Below, one piece after another: positions 1 to 32,972 of a DNA stretch of 64,000 nucleotides. Position numbers and translations under genes: made by a program. Every line of letters starts with the position of its first letter. The stretch's first letter is position 1. The DNA comes from Candidatus Abyssobacteria bacterium SURF_5 (lineage in GTDB: Bacteria > Abyssobacteria > SURF-5): assembly GCA_003598085.1 (NCBI GenBank), contig QZKU01000114.1:35758-99757 (forward strand). The letters are read 5' to 3'. The notes beneath the pieces are model-generated. The model had not been told where the DNA came from, did not search any database, and was given only the letters and a program-made list of their open reading frames with translations.

Positions 1-730
1 CATCAGCGGCAAACGAAGTGGTTTGCTTCTGGTTGACCTGATAAGCGATATAATCAGGATCGTCCTCCATCAGGTTCCCGCCCGATCGGCGCCTGGTCTG
101 AAATATACCATTCCGATTGACCAGATACGCCTCGCCGGTCTTGCCAATCCGGACGTTCTCAACCAGATCGTTGAAGAAGAATGTGTCGATTGTCGCCCGG
201 ATATACCAGGGGCGCTCACCCTCGAACCTCCGGACCGCGATGACGAAATGAGGGATATTGCGATAGCCGAGAAACACGTCCGAGATAAATATCTCTTCGT
301 TCTGGACCCGCTTAAACCACTCGGCCTGAGCGTAATTCTTCCCCTCCAGATCATACGGGCCGACGTAGGCGACATGATTCCCCTCCGCGTCGAAGACGCC
401 CAAATCCAGGAAGCCGCGCGACAGGTTCTGCAGACGCTCGAATTCCGCCTTGATGTTGCCGTTTCCGCTGAGCTCCGAAAGACTACTCGAGGCAGCAACG
501 TACCTCAGGTCCGCCGAGCGCTCGAGCAGAAACTGTTCGACCAGGTTTCGTTGACCTTCGGCCAGATACGCCAGCCTGGCACTCACCTGACCGCTCAGAT
601 TGGTCGCGAAATAGTAGATGAGCGTTCCAAAAACCAGCATGACCGCCACGAATGGAACCAGCAGCACCCGCAGCAGGATCATCCGCCTGGTATTCTCGAA
701 ATTGACCGTTTTTTCGATAATGGAGTTCAT
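1..730 (-). CDS. dCache sensor histidine kinase, N-terminal part (runs off left edge)
   Basis: The frame is open from an ATG at 730 to the window edge, about 243 residues. A short cytoplasmic N-terminus is followed by a transmembrane segment (about residues 17-40, rich in L, V and F) and then an extracytoplasmic domain. The motifs YVGPYDLEGK and FISDVFLGYR are typical of the double Cache (dCache_1) ligand-binding fold. The kinase core lies outside the window, so 'histidine kinase' rests on its resemblance to the complete kinase at 3306-5165, which has matching motifs (YAGPYSYLRGK, YISDIYLGFR). The start overlaps the stop of the upstream receiver gene by 4 bp (ATGA), so the two are translationally coupled. 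The partner is probably that receiver. A dCache chemoreceptor or diguanylate cyclase cannot be excluded from this fragment. Confidence 0.75.
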   Translation of the reverse strand, partial: MNSIIEKTVNFENTRRMILLRVLLVPFVAVMLVFGTLIYYFATNLSGQVSARLAYLAEGQRNLVEQFLLERSADLRYVAASSSLSELSGNGNIKAEFERLQNLSRGFLDLGVFDAEGNHVAYVGPYDLEGKNYAQAEWFKRVQNEEIFISDVFLGYRNIPHFVIAVRRFEGERPWYIRATIDTFFFNDLVENVRIGKTGEAYLVNRNGIFQTRRRSGGNLMEDDPDYIAYQVNQKQTTSFAAD

Positions 731-1218
731 TTTCCCTCTTGGTCCAACTGCTTGATGCGCCGCAGGATGGCCAGCGGAGAACTCGAGTCGGCCATGTCGA
801 GAATCGCATCCATCCGCTCTTCTTTGATCTTATTTTTGTTCATGACGCGACGCTTATAGGCATCGGTCAACACGGATAGGAGTCGCTCGAGTTCGCACGG
901 TTTCTGGAGGTAAAAATAGGCCCCTTTCTTCGTGCATTCAACCGCCGATTCGGTCGAGCCGTGACCGGTGAGGATGATAACCTCCATCCACTTATGTTCC
1001 TTCTTCAGCGCCTCGAGCGTCTGTTCCCCGTCCATTCCGGGCATCTTCAAATCGACCAGCGCCACATCGATCGGGTGCTTCCTGGCCGCCTCAAGCGCCT
1101 TTTCCCCCCGGTTGACAGTGATGACGTTGAAATCCCTCACTTCGAGTCTCTTCTTGGTCGATTCAAGAAAGCGCTCTTCATCGTCGACGATCAAGAGGTT
1201 GATTTTGTCGTTTTGCAT
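727..1218 (-). CDS. stand-alone response regulator receiver protein
   Basis: A CheY-like receiver of about 163 residues with no DNA-binding domain. Visible landmarks are the acidic pair in VDDEE, the phospho-acceptor Asp in DLKMPGMDG (Asp56 from the chosen start), the Thr in ILTGHG and the Lys in LQKPCE. The last 40 residues are a charged helical tail. The start at 1218 is chosen because GGAGG lies just upstream of it; an in-frame ATG at 1230 is 12 nt earlier. It follows the receiver-transporter gene by 18 nt and overlaps the next kinase gene by 4 bp. Its receiver closely resembles that of the transporter fusion (both contain F, then KK, then LEVR, then LTG.GSTESA and QKPC), which suggests a duplicated kinase/receiver module. 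Its output is probably protein-protein or phosphorelay. Confidence 0.85.
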   Translation of the reverse strand: MQNDKINLLIVDDEERFLESTKKRLEVRDFNVITVNRGEKALEAARKHPIDVALVDLKMPGMDGEQTLEALKKEHKWMEVIILTGHGSTESAVECTKKGAYFYLQKPCELERLLSVLTDAYKRRVMNKNKIKEERMDAILDMADSSSPLAILRRIKQLDQEGK

Positions 1219-1236
1219 TTTTTCCTCCATGCCCCG

Positions 1237-3303
1237 TTAGAAGCCCATCCAGCGCCAGTAGCCGAAGAAGGTCCATCCCCACAGCACGATGAAAGACAGG
1301 AGCAGAACGACCGACCCGTGAATCAGAAAGTCCTGCGTGGTCACCAACTGCTCGCCCGTCTCCGGATCCTTTGCCATGCTGTACGCGATTGCATTGTTCG
1401 GCGTCCCAATGATGAGCATGAACGCGAAAGAAGAAGCGAAAGCCGTCGCCAACCCGACCATGATCGGGGAAGTGCCGGAGAGCGTCGCCATGGGAACCGT
1501 GATCGGCCCGATCGCCGCCACCGTCGCTCCGTCGCTCATGAAATTCGTGATCACGCCTGAAAAGATGCTTGTGGCCACGCACAGGCCGATACCGCTCGTC
1601 ATCACTTCGGGAAGCGCTCCGATAAATGCATCGGCCATCCACAGGGCAGCGCCCGTATATGCCAGTCCCGCTCCCATTGCGCTCGCGCTGGCATACAGAG
1701 CAACAACGTCCCAGTGAATCTGGTTGATGTCCCTCCACCGCAAAATCCCGAGCACATTCAATAGCACAATACACAGCAGTACAGGACCGCCCATTCCATA
1801 CTTGCTGGAAACCGTCGACCACAGGATGATTAACAGGACCAGAACCGCCGCCGTCCTGTACTCGTTTTTCGTCATTTTCCCTATCTTCTCGGATTCCTTG
1901 CGGACCTCGGCGGCCACATTCAGATTCTTCACTTTGATCTTCTTCCGGAACAGAAGGAAGAAGTACATGCTGATCACCAGCGCCATCACGGGAACCGTCG
2001 GCAGCCCATATTTCACCCATTGTGCGAATGGGAGCGTGATCCCGTAATCCGACAGGATGCCAAGCATCACCGCGTTACGCCCGCCGGCGGCAGGAGAGCC
2101 GGGCCCCCCCACATTGGCGACAAAGGTCAACATCAGGATCATCATCACCGCCAGATTGCGATCCTTGTTGATGCCTGCGGCCCGTACCGCGCCGCCGTAC
2201 ACCAGGATGAAGATCGGTGCGATGAAAGCAACCAATGCGTGCTCCGAGAGGAACGCTGCCGATACCGCCAGCAGCGGCGCGAAGATAAGCGCCAGCTTTG
2301 CCAGTGAGGAGCTGGTCCCCAGCAATAACAGCCCGATTCTTCGGTCGAGTCCCGTTTTCGCAATCGCGGCGGACACGGCAAGGACTCCGAAGATGAATAT
2401 GACCGAATCTTTTGCATAGGCCGCGGCAACCCGATCCGGCGGCAAAACTCCGAAGAAGTACATCAGCATTCCCACAAGAAGTGCGGTCACCCCGACCGGC
2501 ATCGCGCCGGTCGCCCAGAAAAGCGCCGCGACCACCAGCGTCCCGATCATCACGCGCGCCCGAAAAGCCGCCTGCTTCGGGCTTAACCCGACCTTCACGT
2601 TCTTTCCATCTTCACGGGTGACCGTGTGCGTGTAACCGGCTTTCTCGCTGTAGTAATCCGTGATCGTCTGGCCGGCTTTCATCTTCCTGTATTCGGAGTA
2701 GCCCATGATCGACTGGGGCTGATTTTCAAGTTTCTCCGTGCTCAGGAGAGTCAGAAGCTTTTGTGGAGCCGGGGTCGCTATGATCGCCAGGAACAGCAAC
2801 AGCCCCAGGATGATGTACATCGGCCGCGCATTATGTGCTCCAATCAGCCAGCGCCTCAGGCTGCCCCGCTTGATGTGCGGAATTTCGTGCCGCGCCATCG
2901 CGTACACCCGCTCTTTCCGGGCCGCCTCGATCACCTCGACCAGATCATTGAGCACGCACGGCTTCTGCATGTAATGAAACACGTCATATTTGCCGGTAAG
3001 ACGCGCCGATTCAGTGCTGCCAAATCCAGTCAGCATGATCACCTGCACCTCGGGCCTGATTTTCTTGATCTCCTTCAGGGTCTGGATGCCGTCCATCTTC
3101 GGCATTTTCTGGTCGAGGATGACCACCTCCGGGTTTTTGTGGCGGACTATCTTGATAGCGTCCTCGCCATTGTCGACATCCCAGACCTTGTATTCGCGGA
3201 CCTCAAGCTGCTTTTTCATTGCGACACGGAATTTTTCCTCGTCATCAACGAGTAACACCCGTGCCACGCCGTCGGTGACGGCAGACGTTGCTTGTGTGGC
3301 CAT
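1237..3303 (-). CDS. fusion of an N-terminal receiver domain to a DASS/SLC13-type anion transporter
   Basis: A 688-residue protein. Residues about 14-130 form a complete receiver: acidic pair D20/D21, phospho-acceptor D64 in LDQKMPKMDG, T92 and K114. After a basic linker comes a transmembrane helix (about 157-175), a polar insert of about 75 residues, and then roughly ten or more hydrophobic helices. The membrane part has features of divalent anion:Na+ symporters: a FMSDGATVAAIGPI segment in the position of the second SNT motif, GTPNNAIAYS resembling the TPPNAI motif, and a glycine-rich first hairpin (NVGGPGSPAAGG). The likely substrate is a di- or tricarboxylate, sulfate or another anion, not resolved. 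The start at 3303 has GGAGGAGAG upstream and lies 2 nt after the preceding kinase stop. The gene sits between two dCache kinases. Direct control of transport by phosphorylation is inference. Confidence 0.85.
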   Translation of the reverse strand: MATQATSAVTDGVARVLLVDDEEKFRVAMKKQLEVREYKVWDVDNGEDAIKIVRHKNPEVVILDQKMPKMDGIQTLKEIKKIRPEVQVIMLTGFGSTESARLTGKYDVFHYMQKPCVLNDLVEVIEAARKERVYAMARHEIPHIKRGSLRRWLIGAHNARPMYIILGLLLFLAIIATPAPQKLLTLLSTEKLENQPQSIMGYSEYRKMKAGQTITDYYSEKAGYTHTVTREDGKNVKVGLSPKQAAFRARVMIGTLVVAALFWATGAMPVGVTALLVGMLMYFFGVLPPDRVAAAYAKDSVIFIFGVLAVSAAIAKTGLDRRIGLLLLGTSSSLAKLALIFAPLLAVSAAFLSEHALVAFIAPIFILVYGGAVRAAGINKDRNLAVMMILMLTFVANVGGPGSPAAGGRNAVMLGILSDYGITLPFAQWVKYGLPTVPVMALVISMYFFLLFRKKIKVKNLNVAAEVRKESEKIGKMTKNEYRTAAVLVLLIILWSTVSSKYGMGGPVLLCIVLLNVLGILRWRDINQIHWDVVALYASASAMGAGLAYTGAALWMADAFIGALPEVMTSGIGLCVATSIFSGVITNFMSDGATVAAIGPITVPMATLSGTSPIMVGLATAFASSFAFMLIIGTPNNAIAYSMAKDPETGEQLVTTQDFLIHGSVVLLLSFIVLWGWTFFGYWRWMGF

Positions 3304-3305
3304 AA

Positions 3306-5165
3306 TTAACTCTCCTCCGCTGAGTTCAATGGGAGCACAACAGTGAAACAACTTCCGGCGCCCGGCATGCTCTGAACTTCAATCTGTCCCCCCATCGCCT
3401 GCACTATGCTCAAACTGATGCTCAAGCCAAGCCCGGTCCCCTTTCCGACCTCTTTCGTCGTGTAGAAGGGATTGAATATCCTGGACATCTGATCCGAGGT
3501 CATTCCCTTGCCCGTGTCGGTAATGCTTATTCGTACATCGTTTTCATTGAGGCGGGTCGCCAGCGTGATAGTGCCTGAATTCACGATCGCATCGCCCGCA
3601 TTATTGATGATGTTGAGGAACACCTGGCGCATCTGATCCGGGTCGACCTTCAGCTTCGGCAACAAAGGATCAAAGTCTCGCACCACCTGAATATCGGACA
3701 CCGATAATTCGCGCTCCTTCAATCCGCAAATCACTTCCTCAAGCAGTCGGTTTATATCCGTCGGCGCCAGGCGCGGCTCGCTTTTTCTCACGAAATTGAG
3801 CAATTTCTGAGTGATATCGCGCGCGCGAAACACAGCTTCGTCAATATAGTCAAGTTCCTGCCTGATCTTCTCCGGCGTACACTCCAGACCGAACTGGGGA
3901 TCGAGCAGGTCCCGGATCACCCCGCATTCCGAGGAGATGATGGCGAGTGGATTATTGATTTCATGCGCGACGCCGCCGGCAAGCTCCCCGACAGCCACCA
4001 GTTTGGCCGCATGGAAAAGCTGTGATTTCAGTTCCTTGCGGGATTCGTCAGTTGCCTGCGCCCGGCGCAGCAGCCTGTTTGTAGCCGCCCACGTGATCGT
4101 CGCCAGCACGACCACAAAGAGGCCGGTGACCGCGATCATGATCCGGCGAACGCGATACATATCGGCGTAAGCCACTTTGAGCGGCTGACGGACAACTAAC
4201 ACCCAGGGCGCCTCCTTCAACCAGGAATAGGCGAATAGCTGCGGGTCGCCGTTCGAAGCAACTTCGTTCGCGCCCGAACCGCTGCCTTTCGGCGGCATGT
4301 ACGGGCTGATTCCAAGCAGGCCGCCCTCGCCTGGATCGACCACCTGGTACTTCCCTTCCCGATTAATGAGAGCCGAATTCGCCACTTTCCCCTGACCAAT
4401 CGTCCGTATGAAGCGGTAAAACTTGTCGGGGTCCAGGGTCGCCCGAACCACGTAAGCACGGCCTTCCACCATCTGTTTTACCGCAATCGTAAAGTGAGGC
4501 TTCTGGCGGAATCCAAGATAAATGTCGCTGATGTAGTAGTTCTGATTCTGACTCATCAGTGTCTGATACCATGCTTCCTTGCTGTAGTCTTTCCCCCGCA
4601 GATACGAGTAAGGTCCGGCATAGCCGATCTGCGTCCCCCTTTCATTGAGGAAACCGACATCCACAAATGCATCGCTCATTTCAAGAAGCTGCTGCAACGC
4701 CTTGCCCATGTCTTCCTGGGCGGGAGGAAAATCCAGGTAGCTGCCATGAAAGAGATTGAATATATTGACCACCCGCTCCTGCAGGAAGAGGTCGATCGTG
4801 TTGCGCTGGGTTTCGGCCAATGTTGTCAGATGCAGCTTCCCGCTTTCCTTCAGCGTCACATTGAACTGAAAATGGAAGTAAAGAGAAAGAATTGCGAGGG
4901 GCGTCAGGAACGCGATCAGCAAGCCCACGGACAATCGGTGGCGCAGTCGGCGGTAGTATTCCCGCATTCCGACCCGGGGAAGCGGCGGGATCGTCCTGGG
5001 AGATCTGGGCCTCTCCGTTGGCTCCATGGTCTCGGCGCTCTTATGCATTTCGCTCCTCGAGCCCGGCCACAGAGGTGGCATCTGCGGTTTGTACTTAACC
5101 GCCCCTTCCTCTTTTCGCCGGGTCATTGGTTTCCTGCTGTATGGATAGGCGGGAACCTGCTCCAT
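3306..5165 (-). CDS. dCache sensor histidine kinase
   Basis: Up to 619 residues. A proline-rich cytoplasmic N-terminus of about 75 residues precedes the first transmembrane helix (LLIAFLTPLAILSLYF). A periplasmic dCache_1 domain of about 240 residues follows, then a second helix (GLFVVVLATITWAA), a dimerisation/phospho-acceptor helix (GGVAHEINNPL) and a HATPase domain with N box (NIINNAGDAI), G1 (DTGKGM) and G2 (GKGTGLGLSIS). All residues for autophosphorylation are present. No strong ribosome site precedes 5165; downstream ATGs at residues 15 and 40 are alternatives. The adjacent downstream gene is the receiver-transporter fusion, the natural phosphorylation target. The ligand is unknown; dCache domains commonly bind small metabolites such as amino or organic acids. 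Confidence 0.92.
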   Translation of the reverse strand: MEQVPAYPYSRKPMTRRKEEGAVKYKPQMPPLWPGSRSEMHKSAETMEPTERPRSPRTIPPLPRVGMREYYRRLRHRLSVGLLIAFLTPLAILSLYFHFQFNVTLKESGKLHLTTLAETQRNTIDLFLQERVVNIFNLFHGSYLDFPPAQEDMGKALQQLLEMSDAFVDVGFLNERGTQIGYAGPYSYLRGKDYSKEAWYQTLMSQNQNYYISDIYLGFRQKPHFTIAVKQMVEGRAYVVRATLDPDKFYRFIRTIGQGKVANSALINREGKYQVVDPGEGGLLGISPYMPPKGSGSGANEVASNGDPQLFAYSWLKEAPWVLVVRQPLKVAYADMYRVRRIMIAVTGLFVVVLATITWAATNRLLRRAQATDESRKELKSQLFHAAKLVAVGELAGGVAHEINNPLAIISSECGVIRDLLDPQFGLECTPEKIRQELDYIDEAVFRARDITQKLLNFVRKSEPRLAPTDINRLLEEVICGLKERELSVSDIQVVRDFDPLLPKLKVDPDQMRQVFLNIINNAGDAIVNSGTITLATRLNENDVRISITDTGKGMTSDQMSRIFNPFYTTKEVGKGTGLGLSISLSIVQAMGGQIEVQSMPGAGSCFTVVLPLNSAEES

Positions 5166-5350: not shown

Positions 5351-6781
5351 TTATTCCTGAGGCTGTTCGGAGGACTCAGTCAAGTTGCACTTTTCCATCT
5401 TGGCGTGGAGGGTGGGTCGCGAGATGCCCAGAAGCTTGGCGGCTTTCGTCCGGTTCCCATGCGTCAGATTCAGCGCCTCCGTTATCAGGAGTTCGGTGAA
5501 ATGATCTATGAGAGACGAGAAAAGATTATTCCGTCCTCCGGCCATTATGCTGCCGCGCACCCATTGGCGGATGCTCTCTTCTATATTCCTGTTGGCGACA
5601 ACGTCCTTAGCCGCATCATTATGGACCGCCTGTGAGATATCCTCCGGCCGGATCGGATAGCCGCGACTGAAAATCAGCGCCTTCTGGAGCGTGTTTGCCA
5701 GCTCACGCACATTGCCGTGCCACGGATGATTTTCCACCATCGACAACGCTTCATTTGTGATGCCGGGACTCTCCATCCCCATTTCCGTTGCGAAACGGGT
5801 CAGGAAATAATGGCAAAGCAGCCGAGTGTCGCCCTTGCGGCTCCGAAGCGGGGGAATCTCAATCGTGACCACCTTCAAGCGATAGTACAAATCCTCGCGG
5901 AATCGGCCTTCTGAAAGGGCGGCCTCAAGATTGCGGTTGGTCGCCGCCAAGATACGCACGTCCACCGGGATCGGCTCCCGACCGCCCAACCGCTCGATAT
6001 TCTTCTCCTGAAGCAAGCGCAGGATTTTCGCCTGAATGCTCAGGGGCATATCCCCGATCTCATCGAGAAAGATCGTCCCCCCGTTTGCCTGCTCGATCTT
6101 CCCGATCCGCCGGGCTACGGCGCCGGTGAACGTCCCCTTCTCATACCCGAATAACTCGCTCTCGAGCAATGTCTCCGGTATCGCGACGCAATTGATTACC
6201 GTGAACGGCTTGTCGGCGCGCAGGCTGTGCTGATACAATGCCCGCGCAACCAGTTCCTTGCCCGTTCCGGATTCCCCGCGAATCAGGACGGTCGCATCGG
6301 TCGGGGCAACCCGCCCTATGGCCTTGTAGATTTCCTGCATCGCGGGAGATCGCCCGATTATGGCTTCAGGCGCCGCCGTATCCGGGACCGAATCCATTTC
6401 AACGCGCGAGCGCATGAACCTGCCCGCCTCAATCGCCTGCTCGATGAGACTGAGGATATCGGGAATGTCGAACGGCTTGAGGACGTAATCGAAGGCGCCC
6501 AACTTGGTCGCCTCAATCGCCGTGTCGGTCGTGCCGAAAGCTGTCATGATAATAACCGGGAGCTTGGAGTCGATCTTGCGGATCGCCTGGAAAGCTTCCA
6601 TTCCGCTCATGCCGGGCAGGCGCACGTCCATGATGAGCAGGTCGGGAACGAACTGCTTGAGCGCCTCGATACCTTCTTCTCCGGAGGATGCCGTTCTGAC
6701 CAAATAGCCTTCTTCCTGCAACAGCTTGTCAAAACTCTGCCGCAGTTGCACATCGTCTTCAACAATCAGAATCGAACTCAT
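5351..6781 (-). CDS. NtrC-family sigma-54-dependent response regulator
   Basis: 476 residues in three domains. The receiver (1-120) has phospho-acceptor D52 in IMDVRLPG. The AAA+ sigma-54 activation domain (about 140-375) has Walker A GESGTGKE, the sigma-54 contact loop GTFTGA and Walker B FLDEIGDMPL. The Fis-type helix-turn-helix (about 435-470) contains GNRTKAAKLLGISRPTL. All parts needed for an enhancer-binding activator of RNA polymerase sigma-54 are intact. Its start overlaps the stop of the upstream kinase by 4 bp, so the two form a cognate pair. I found no convincing TGGCAC-N5-TTGC promoter in the nearby intergenic regions, so its targets are probably elsewhere or are degenerate. Confidence 0.95.
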   Translation of the reverse strand: MSSILIVEDDVQLRQSFDKLLQEEGYLVRTASSGEEGIEALKQFVPDLLIMDVRLPGMSGMEAFQAIRKIDSKLPVIIMTAFGTTDTAIEATKLGAFDYVLKPFDIPDILSLIEQAIEAGRFMRSRVEMDSVPDTAAPEAIIGRSPAMQEIYKAIGRVAPTDATVLIRGESGTGKELVARALYQHSLRADKPFTVINCVAIPETLLESELFGYEKGTFTGAVARRIGKIEQANGGTIFLDEIGDMPLSIQAKILRLLQEKNIERLGGREPIPVDVRILAATNRNLEAALSEGRFREDLYYRLKVVTIEIPPLRSRKGDTRLLCHYFLTRFATEMGMESPGITNEALSMVENHPWHGNVRELANTLQKALIFSRGYPIRPEDISQAVHNDAAKDVVANRNIEESIRQWVRGSIMAGGRNNLFSSLIDHFTELLITEALNLTHGNRTKAAKLLGISRPTLHAKMEKCNLTESSEQPQE

Positions 6782-8322
6782 GCCGGTTCCTCTTTGATGG
6801 GGAGAGCGATGATAAAGGTGGCCCCCAGATTCTCTTCAGACCGCACCGTCAACCGCCCGCCATGTTCCTCGACAATCCTGGCGGCGATGGAAAGACCCAG
6901 TCCCGTTCCTTCCTCTTTGGTCGTGAAGAACGGCTGAAAGATCTTGTCGCGGATCGATTCAGGAATTCCAGGACCGGTATCGGCTATCTGGATAAGCGCC
7001 ACCCTCCCAATCTCCTCCGCCAGTCCCTCTTCCTCCGTAATCAATATCTTGCCGCCCTCCCCCATCGCATCACATGCATTTACGATCAGATTCACCATGA
7101 CTTCCTTAAGCAACTCCGGGTCGGCATCGATACAAGGAATACTATTGCGCCGCTCTCGCTCCAGCTTCACCCCATGGCGCTCCAGTCGCTTTTCCAGCAG
7201 TTGAAGGACCGAATCCACCGCATCAGATACGTCCACCTTCTGCACCTTCAGCTTCGGCGGCCTCGAAAACTCCAGAAAATTCCTGACAATGTTGTCCAGA
7301 TGACGCAGCTCCTCAGAGATAACGTCGAAATCGTCCCGCGCGACCGCGGGACCAATCGACCGCTGCAGAGAGAACAATCGCATCTTTATTGACGTCATCG
7401 GATTGCGAATACTGTGAGCCGCTTCCGCAGCCAGCTTTCCTACCAGAGCCATCCGCTCCGACTGCAGCAGCCGAGTGCGGCTGCGCTCCAGTTCCAGATG
7501 AGTCTGGTCGACGTCCTCCATCAAACCTCGAACGCCGCTCTTCAATGCAGCCACCTCATCAAGCGATCTATCGGACCCGTTTTTGCCGCTCGTCTGGATC
7601 GCCAGCCGTCGGATTGGATCAAGTATCTGCACCACCAGAACAAAGGAAAGGAAACCGCCGATCAGAACCGCCGCCGATACAGCCGCAGCGGCTATCCCGC
7701 GAAGTCCGCGCGCTTGAGCCTGCCCCCTCAACCACATCTCATGTATTTCCCGGTTGTGCATCTCGTTATACTCGCCGCACAATTCGAGAACTTTAGAAAA
7801 CTTTTGCCTCAAATCCCGGTGGAGCTTCTCTCCCTCTTCACGATGCCCCGATAAATATAAAGTAATGGTTTCATCCTTTCCATCGATATACGTCCGGTAT
7901 TCCGCCTCGATCTTGTCAAGGATCTGCGCATGACCGCCAACGCATTCCAGCGCCCGAGCCTCACGCATCCGCTCGTCAAAGTCCTGGCGAGACCGTCCAA
8001 GTTCTTTCAGCCAATCCGGATTCTTCTCAAGCAGATAGTATGAGACATAGCCTCTTTGATTCAAAAGAGCCGTTTCCAGCCCCTTCGCTACTTGAAGAGA
8101 CGCCACGTTTTCCTCCAGCACGCTCATCAGCAGCTTTTCCATCCGGTAAGTGTACCAGATCATTACAATGCCGCCTGCGGCCGTGATAACAACAAGGCCT
8201 CCCAGTGTAATGAGGATCCGGGAGCGAAGCCCTAAACGACTCCAAAAAGCCAATAAACCGGCAGGCCTGCCATCGCTTTGGTTCCCGCCGGCGGGAGTAA
8301 CGGTACTTAATTGATTATCCAT
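6778..8322 (-). CDS. HAMP-type sensor histidine kinase, partner of the NtrC-like regulator
   Basis: 514 residues from the ATG at 8322; an in-frame TTG at 8391 would add 23 residues. There are two transmembrane helices (about 30-52 and 205-230) around a mostly helical, charged sensor of about 150 residues that resembles four-helix-bundle sensors of chemoreceptors. A HAMP region follows (QILDPIRRLA), then the phospho-acceptor helix (AAHSIRNPMTSIK), N box (NLIVNACDAMGEG), G1 (DTGPGIPES) and G2 (GTGLGLSIA). It is the first gene of a pair with the sigma-54 activator. It is divergent from the DsbA-like gene, with 336 bp between the two starts. Confidence 0.93.
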   Translation of the reverse strand: MDNQLSTVTPAGGNQSDGRPAGLLAFWSRLGLRSRILITLGGLVVITAAGGIVMIWYTYRMEKLLMSVLEENVASLQVAKGLETALLNQRGYVSYYLLEKNPDWLKELGRSRQDFDERMREARALECVGGHAQILDKIEAEYRTYIDGKDETITLYLSGHREEGEKLHRDLRQKFSKVLELCGEYNEMHNREIHEMWLRGQAQARGLRGIAAAAVSAAVLIGGFLSFVLVVQILDPIRRLAIQTSGKNGSDRSLDEVAALKSGVRGLMEDVDQTHLELERSRTRLLQSERMALVGKLAAEAAHSIRNPMTSIKMRLFSLQRSIGPAVARDDFDVISEELRHLDNIVRNFLEFSRPPKLKVQKVDVSDAVDSVLQLLEKRLERHGVKLERERRNSIPCIDADPELLKEVMVNLIVNACDAMGEGGKILITEEEGLAEEIGRVALIQIADTGPGIPESIRDKIFQPFFTTKEEGTGLGLSIAARIVEEHGGRLTVRSEENLGATFIIALPIKEEPA

Positions 8323-8449
8323 ATCACACGCGGAGCAACATCCCGCCTCAGAAAAAAGTTCCAGTGCACGCCATGCAAATAGCGCATTCAAAAGCGACCG
8401 ACCTCTTCACCGGGTCATTTTGTCGCCATTTTCGCTTTGATTGGGCTTT

Positions 8450-30019: not shown

Positions 30020-31594
<1,575 letters not shown>

Positions 31595-31661
31595 ATGGCT
31601 CAAAGATGATTTTCTGAAAACCTTCGGCTGAGGGCTGTGTCCGGAAGTAAAGCCTGGAATG

Positions 31662-32972
31662 TCAATCGAGAACACCGGCGACGATTGCAGTCTCTATCGA
31701 TGGCGACCGCATGATCTTTGCGCGGGAAATGGCAAAGGCGGCAATCGCTTCACCGGTGGCGAAGATGACGAAGGCGAGATAGTAGCCGCCGGTCGTGTCA
31801 AAAATGAAGCCCGCCAGCAGCGGCCCTATTGCCCCTCCAGCAACCCCGCTGATAGCAAGCACTCCAAATATCGCGCCCAGCGACTTCAATCCAAAACATT
31901 CGCCGATAATCAGCGGCGCGAGCACCAGTCCGCCGCCGCCGGTAAGGCCGTAAACAAGAACGTACGCAAAAAAGGCCTTTGTCCCGATCAACGGCAATGC
32001 CAGCAGCATGCAAACCGATATCGTTTCCAGGATGTAACACGCTGTGAATACCTTGCGAACAGGAAAGCGGTCAGCCGCAAAACCAAATGTGACGCGGCCC
32101 GCGATGCCCAGTATGGCAACGAGTCCCAGACAGACAGACGCGAGTCGCGTATCGATGCCGGCGTCCGTCAGGACCACCACCAGGTGCGTAATTAAGCCGA
32201 CCCCCGACATCATCGGAAAGAAGAAGGCGGCGGCAATCATCCAGAAAGTTACTGTCCTCATCGCTTGCTGCAGAGTGAACTCTTCCGCCGGCAGCTTCAC
32301 CGTTTTCTCCTGCGAAATGATCTCCTCCAGCCCGCCCGGTTTCATCCGTTCCGACTCACTTCCCTTGCCGTCAGGCAGAAGACCGATCGCGGAAGGACTC
32401 CTTCTCAGGATCAACGCGGCAACAGGGATTACTCCACCCCAAAGGATTACCGCAAGGATCAGATAAGAGATACGCCAGCCGGTCAATTCAATCAAATATT
32501 CTGCCAGAGGCGGCATGAGAAAGCCGCCCGTGCTCCCGCCGATAAGGGTTAATCCCATCGCCGCCCCACGCTTCTTCTGGAACCAGTGGGAAATAATCGC
32601 GCTCAAGGGGATAAGGCTGACGCCGGCAAAGAACACCGAGCCGGCTATCGAAATGACGTACAACTGCCAGAGAGTGGAAATGCCCGCGCGCAACAACAGA
32701 CTCAAGCCCGCAAAAAAAGCCGCCGTTATCATCACCGCGCGTCCGCCCGCGCGATCAGTCCAGTTGCCCCAGAAGGGAGCGGCCAGGCCTCCGACAACCA
32801 GGCTTGCGGAAACGACGCCGGAGAGCGCGGTCCGGCTCCATTTGAACTCTTCGATGAAGACTTTGAAATAGACGGCAAATGTGTATCCAATGCCGCTCAG
32901 AAAGAACATCGCCAGGAAACAAACCGCAACGATATACCAGCCATAGTATATCTTTCGTTTCTCCGCAGTCAC
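31662..32972 (-). CDS. MFS transporter, OFA/MCT-like (carboxylate) family
   Basis: 436 residues from a GTG at 32972 (GGGGAGCAG upstream), with 12 hydrophobic helices. IYYGWYIVAVCFLAMFFLSGIGY at helix 1 and the WSRTALSGVVSASLV stretch resemble the oxalate:formate antiporter and monocarboxylate transporter group. GLTLIGGSTGGFLMPP in helix 4-5 and LTGGGGLVLAPLIIGECFG in helix 10 fit. The likely substrate is an organic acid; pyruvate export or uptake beside tyrosine phenol-lyase is speculative. Confidence 0.88.
   Translation of the reverse strand: MTAEKRKIYYGWYIVAVCFLAMFFLSGIGYTFAVYFKVFIEEFKWSRTALSGVVSASLVVGGLAAPFWGNWTDRAGGRAVMITAAFFAGLSLLLRAGISTLWQLYVISIAGSVFFAGVSLIPLSAIISHWFQKKRGAAMGLTLIGGSTGGFLMPPLAEYLIELTGWRISYLILAVILWGGVIPVAALILRRSPSAIGLLPDGKGSESERMKPGGLEEIISQEKTVKLPAEEFTLQQAMRTVTFWMIAAAFFFPMMSGVGLITHLVVVLTDAGIDTRLASVCLGLVAILGIAGRVTFGFAADRFPVRKVFTACYILETISVCMLLALPLIGTKAFFAYVLVYGLTGGGGLVLAPLIIGECFGLKSLGAIFGVLAISGVAGGAIGPLLAGFIFDTTGGYYLAFVIFATGEAIAAFAISRAKIMRSPSIETAIVAGVLD

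Follow-up and report, generated by a model that had tools for sequence, protein, structure and literature searches.

The RR-DASS protein encoded at positions 1237–3303 of the window, the 64,000-nucleotide stretch of a Candidatus Abyssobacteria bacterium SURF_5 contig analyzed here, joins a receiver domain to a DASS/SLC13-type anion carrier. It is best read, with a probability of roughly 0.6, as a response regulator that has a secondary anion carrier as its output domain, such that phosphorylation would control sulfate uptake after translation. The fusion itself is real, old and conserved. The usual targets of response regulators are DNA, RNA, enzymes and partner proteins. If the reading is true, a response regulator with a carrier built in as its output would represent a new output type and link sensing directly to transport, and in several phyla the step under its control would be the one with which dissimilatory sulfate reduction begins, the uptake of sulfate. 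Evenly balanced is the more specific proposition that receiver phosphorylation directly sets the sulfate uptake rate, which would define a class of response regulators with ion-coupled carrier output spread over several phyla. The genes and protein segments referred to below are as follows.

1..730, minus strand: second dCache histidine kinase, start only; it continues beyond the window (contig C114:34739-36487) and is syntenic in the related genome G001
727..1230, minus strand: stand-alone receiver, 167 residues, without a DNA-binding domain (Pfam)
1237..3303, minus strand: RR-DASS, receiver plus DASS/SLC13 anion carrier, 688 residues (ORF, Pfam, conserved in many genomes)
1240..2580, minus strand: DASS carrier core, residues 242–688 (Pfam, Foldseek)
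1528..1536, minus strand: SDG, residues 590–592, at the place of the second SNT motif of VcINDY (alignment of copies and alignment to VcINDY)
2239..2247, minus strand: SEH, residues 353–355, at the place of the first SNT motif of VcINDY (alignment to VcINDY)
2581..2763, minus strand: predicted extracytoplasmic insert between membrane helices 1 and 2, residues 181–241 (alignment and AlphaFold; topology inferred)
2764..2913, minus strand: linker helices and putative first transmembrane helix, residues 131–180 (AlphaFold secondary structure)
2914..3264, minus strand: receiver domain, residues 14–130 (Pfam; AlphaFold receiver fold; Foldseek match 3jte, TMt 0.88)
3112..3114, minus strand: codon of D64, the predicted phospho-acceptor
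3306..5165, minus strand: dCache sensor histidine kinase, 619 residues, probable cognate kinase (Pfam, gene order)
5351..6781, minus strand: NtrC-type sigma-54 response regulator, probable transcriptional arm (Pfam; syntenic in G001, 78% identity)
6778..8391, minus strand: histidine kinase adjoining the NtrC-type regulator (ORF list; syntenic in G001)

The initial annotation described one unbroken frame encoding an intact receiver and a DASS/SLC13-like transporter, and this description holds in every part. The ORF is a single 688-residue frame with zero internal stops, and both domains exceed their Pfam cut-offs: Response_reg at residues 16–125 (88.1 bits, E 5.6e-25, cut-off 30.2) and Na_sulph_symp (PF00939) at residues 248–686 (135.4 bits, E 3.8e-39, cut-off 27). 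The receiver active site residues D20, D21, D64, T92 and K114 are all present exactly as claimed, and the alignment shows them to be invariant in 42 of 42 fusion copies. The AlphaFold monomer (mean pLDDT 86, pTM 0.75) comprises, in order, the receiver, linker helices, the first membrane helix, a small insert and the DASS body; in this model the linker between receiver and membrane has a pLDDT of ~61–72. A Foldseek search with the body placed the human sulfate carrier NaS1 together with NaCT at the top and also returned VcINDY, with TMt up to 0.81 and E values down to 2.6e-18. The membrane part thus belongs to the DASS family by both Pfam and fold, contrary to the possibility that it is not a transporter. 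The score against the NCBIfam model of DASS family sodium-coupled anion symporters, TIGR00785, is 179.7 bits and falls below the cut-off of 198.6, which places RR-DASS in a divergent subclade. Both SNT motifs of VcINDY, which bind Na+ and substrate, are absent, with SEH and SDG in their place; SEH is kept in 40 of the 41 fusion copies that cover the position. Because these motifs replace those of the characterized Na+-coupled DASS carriers, the substrate and the coupling ion may differ, and Na+ coupling is not claimed for RR-DASS. Mean conservation over the fusion copies is nearly equal in the receiver (0.71) and the carrier core (0.76) and lower in the linker that connects the receiver to the membrane; the insert, residues 181–241, is the least conserved structured part.

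The fusion was found in all three genomes examined of the window's family and, among 98 genomes mostly from other families, in the window's own family only. In a Zixibacteria-type phylum (that of G104) 34 of 132 genomes have it, as do 35 of 389 genomes of the Desulfobacula class (that of G098), a few of the matches being partial in each case. Altogether ~80 other genomes contain it, mostly at full length and with 53–71% identity, one of them a single contig of 5,197,905 bp. A scan of named genomes, many of them metagenome bins, returned ~40 fusion loci labeled Desulfobacterota, Zixibacteria, Hydrogenedentota, Poribacteria, Planctomycetota, Calditrichota, Kapabacteria and Acidobacteriota; some labels given to the genomes are questionable, such as 'Nealsonbacteria' for a genome of 9.1 Mb. 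An assembly error that fuses two genes, or a neighbor in frame by chance, would also give a single frame in one contig, an explanation that is exceedingly improbable because the same fusion recurs in independent assemblies, whole-chromosome contigs among them.

A tree of the DASS domain with 86 rows, obtained by a quick search and with several long branches, requires one change between the fused and single states and places all fusions in one clade (SH-aLRT 98). The nearest rows outside the clade are the unfused carriers of genomes G162 and G163, followed by those of loci L077–L079. That the sister lineages Desulfobacterium autotrophicum HRM2, G163 and L077–L079 manage without a fused receiver counts against the preferred reading. 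In the receiver tree the fused receivers likewise form one clade (support 99). The receiver type closest to them is that of the stand-alone receiver at 727–1230, and the fused and downstream receivers share one group with a support of 95, which suggests a duplication that preceded the fusion. A simple split-gene ancestor was sought in L077–L079, where a separate receiver gene lies near a DASS gene. This receiver is nearest to another receiver type, however, and therefore indicates an association and not a direct precursor. The sister relationship of the two receivers resembles that in kinases with two receivers and, together with the lower conservation of the linker relative to either domain, would fit a receiver that serves as a phosphate sink or that governs how the carrier is targeted to the membrane, binds partners or is turned over, instead of how fast it transports. 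We consider this unlikely, since a phosphate sink would not require fusion, and the restriction of the fusion to one carrier subclade across several phyla suggests an effect on that carrier.

The gene order around RR-DASS is conserved. The initial annotation placed the gene 2 nt after a complete dCache histidine kinase gene, and this is borne out: the kinase gene at 3306–5165 ends 2 nt ahead of the RR-DASS ATG, and the Shine-Dalgarno-like stretch of RR-DASS, GGAGGAGAG, sits within the last codons of the kinase, so that the two genes are probably translationally coupled. Pfam identifies HisKA and HATPase_c in this kinase, and dCache_1 scores 44.5 bits, slightly under its cut-off of 45; a sequence search for solved relatives of the dCache domain returned none. 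In 33 of 38 loci a kinase gene directly precedes RR-DASS on the same strand, two others being too close to a contig end to judge, and a stand-alone receiver lies directly downstream in 37 of 38. At six loci (L040, L041, L042, L052, L075 and L148) the upstream kinase, 681–735 residues long, has a receiver of its own at the N-terminus, before the Cache domain. By Pfam, the window's module of kinase, RR-DASS and receiver contains no DNA-binding domain; gene order and domain content thus point to the carrier as the natural output of the kinase.

The module is part of a larger cluster. G001 keeps the order kinase, NtrC-type regulator, kinase, RR-DASS, receiver, kinase, receiver. In the window's genome (5.1 Mb in 145 contigs) the cluster extends past the window with two more DASS carriers without a receiver, a porin, CBS proteins, further dCache kinases, and receivers joined to CBS or to a cytidylate-kinase-like domain. 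The Pfam-scanned receivers of the cluster stand alone or are joined to DASS, CBS, cytidylate-kinase-like or sigma-54 domains, and none is a DNA-binding regulator of the WalR type that could be a kinase output. Four further short receivers beyond the window, of 122–165 residues, leave no room for a winged-helix domain beside the receiver. Receivers joined to CBS domain pairs lie near DASS carriers at contig C114:29746-30774 and 31346-32284 (L004), an architecture that recurs in many related loci. At C114:28432-29664 (L004:12432-13664, minus strand) a cytidylate-kinase-like domain is followed by a C-terminal receiver in a protein of ~410 residues, and in several lineages (L087, L088, L091, L094, L105, L109, L111 and L113) proteins of this architecture recur beside a dCache kinase or a DASS gene. 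A phosphate-selective-type porin gene (Porin_O_P) overlaps the end of the third DASS gene (C114:21471-24469, L004); its product is perhaps the outer-membrane partner for the anion.

Bacterial carriers co-sense with kinases, as DctA or DcuB does with DcuS, and the cluster holds several kinases and an NtrC-type regulator. The receiver could therefore dock the carrier to the kinase, so that occupancy of or flux through the carrier tunes the kinase and, via other regulators of the cluster, transcription. This arrangement is improbable: the invariance of the five phosphotransfer residues goes beyond the needs of docking alone, and the module itself is without a DNA-binding output.

In the preferred reading, in which the carrier is the output, the upstream dCache kinase would sense an outside signal, perhaps sulfate, and phosphorylate D64 of RR-DASS. 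The short helical linker would hold the receiver at the cytoplasmic face of a DASS dimer, and the phosphorylated receiver would shift its contacts and thereby raise or lower transport. The carrier would import an anion, most likely sulfate, to feed dissimilatory sulfate reduction. As a sister of the fused one, the receiver encoded downstream may share the kinase as a phosphate sink or second output. Sulfate uptake would then be tuned post-translationally, beside a slower sigma-54 transcriptional arm. The initial annotation likewise had the kinase phosphorylate the transporter itself, with uptake gated within seconds instead of through transcription; this view is supported in part, by the single intact protein with its phospho-site and carrier and by the conserved kinase partner, while the gating and its speed would be predictions.

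The likely substrate, judged from gene co-occurrence and from relatives, is sulfate. dsrA exceeds its cut-off in 30 of 42 fusion-bearing genomes versus 9 of 98 genomes sampled across the domain, and aprA does so in 34 of the 42, the window's genome included. Within the phylum of G104, a dsrA match was obtained in 31 of 34 fusion carriers and in 20 of 98 non-carriers (Fisher p 1.7e-13, uncorrected for kinship). dsrA is present in 27 of 28 Desulfobacteraceae genomes, which leaves no contrast between carriers and non-carriers in that family. It is this enrichment of dissimilatory sulfite reductase that makes sulfate the likely substrate. In D. autotrophicum three DASS genes at 4.29–4.30 Mb fit HRM2_38230, HRM2_38270 and HRM2_38300 by spacing, and HRM2_38230, a locus tag matched by inference, appears from gene order and position to be the receiver-less sister of the fusion. 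HRM2_38230 and HRM2_38300 are highly expressed below 100 µM sulfate according to one section of the report (PMC5840216), while another section of it states the opposite for HRM2_38300 at low sulfate. A carrier under the same control might instead transport a different dianion (a C4-dicarboxylate, thiosulfate or a phosphate-like anion), since PF00939 spans dicarboxylate and sulfate carriers, SEH and SDG differ from the motifs of the characterized members aligned, and a full dsrA is missing in some fusion genomes. This is rather doubtful in view of the strong association with dsrA and aprA and the low-sulfate expression of the relative (PMC5840216), which favor sulfate.

The genome of SURF_5, for which dsrAB was reported absent (PMC6121073), contains a full aprA, and of dsrA it has just a start, at two contig ends. 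The contig ends at C54:29634-29687 and C97:11890-11943 (ends of L156 and L157) have identical terminal 70 bases, which encode the start of DsrA; contig C97 also bears the full aprA. The missing dsrAB is likely explained by a dsr region that is duplicated and dropped out where the assembly breaks.

The fusion is present in the cultured Desulfobacula toluolica and Desulfatitalea alkaliphila, which makes direct control of uptake testable. By gene order, TOL2_19410 and TOL2_19470 of D. toluolica were considered as the fusion and did not fit.

The initial annotation regarded RR-DASS as the best candidate for an undescribed system. This appears to hold for the fusion but not fully for its surroundings, since clusters of DASS-type sulfate transporters with two-component systems and CBS proteins were described in 2025 in 26 species, including Desulfosarcina variabilis (PMC11887813). 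Those clusters resemble the present one in combining DASS carriers, dCache kinases, receivers and CBS proteins, and sulfate is proposed there as well. They differ in their outputs: transcriptional control via WalR-type regulators, plus contacts of CBS proteins, is proposed there (PMC11887813), whereas the receiver beside the window's fusion has no DNA-binding domain. The words 'fused', 'fusion' and 'receiver' are absent from the main text of that report. DASS group Cii of sulfate reducers, which includes HRM2_38230 and HRM2_38300, has a member length of 691 residues, as has the D. toluolica fusion, and the text on this group mentions no response regulator (PMC5840216, 2018). A literature search, mainly outside subscription papers, preprints and supplements, returned no receiver-DASS protein, and hence none already characterized. 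The cluster type is thus known, and the fusion and its implication appear new within the literature searched.

RR-DASS shares its fold and Pfam family with VcINDY and human NaCT and NaS1 at ~22% identity; these carriers have no receiver, and they have SNT motifs where RR-DASS has SEH and SDG. CheY and other receivers work on membrane machines by contact with a membrane protein, not with DNA. Unlike them, the receiver of RR-DASS is covalently part of its target, and the target is a secondary carrier. The fusion of a secondary carrier to a two-component domain has a counterpart in CbrA, which combines an SSS carrier with a histidine kinase; the carrier of CbrA is joined to the kinase, whereas the carrier of RR-DASS is joined to the receiver.
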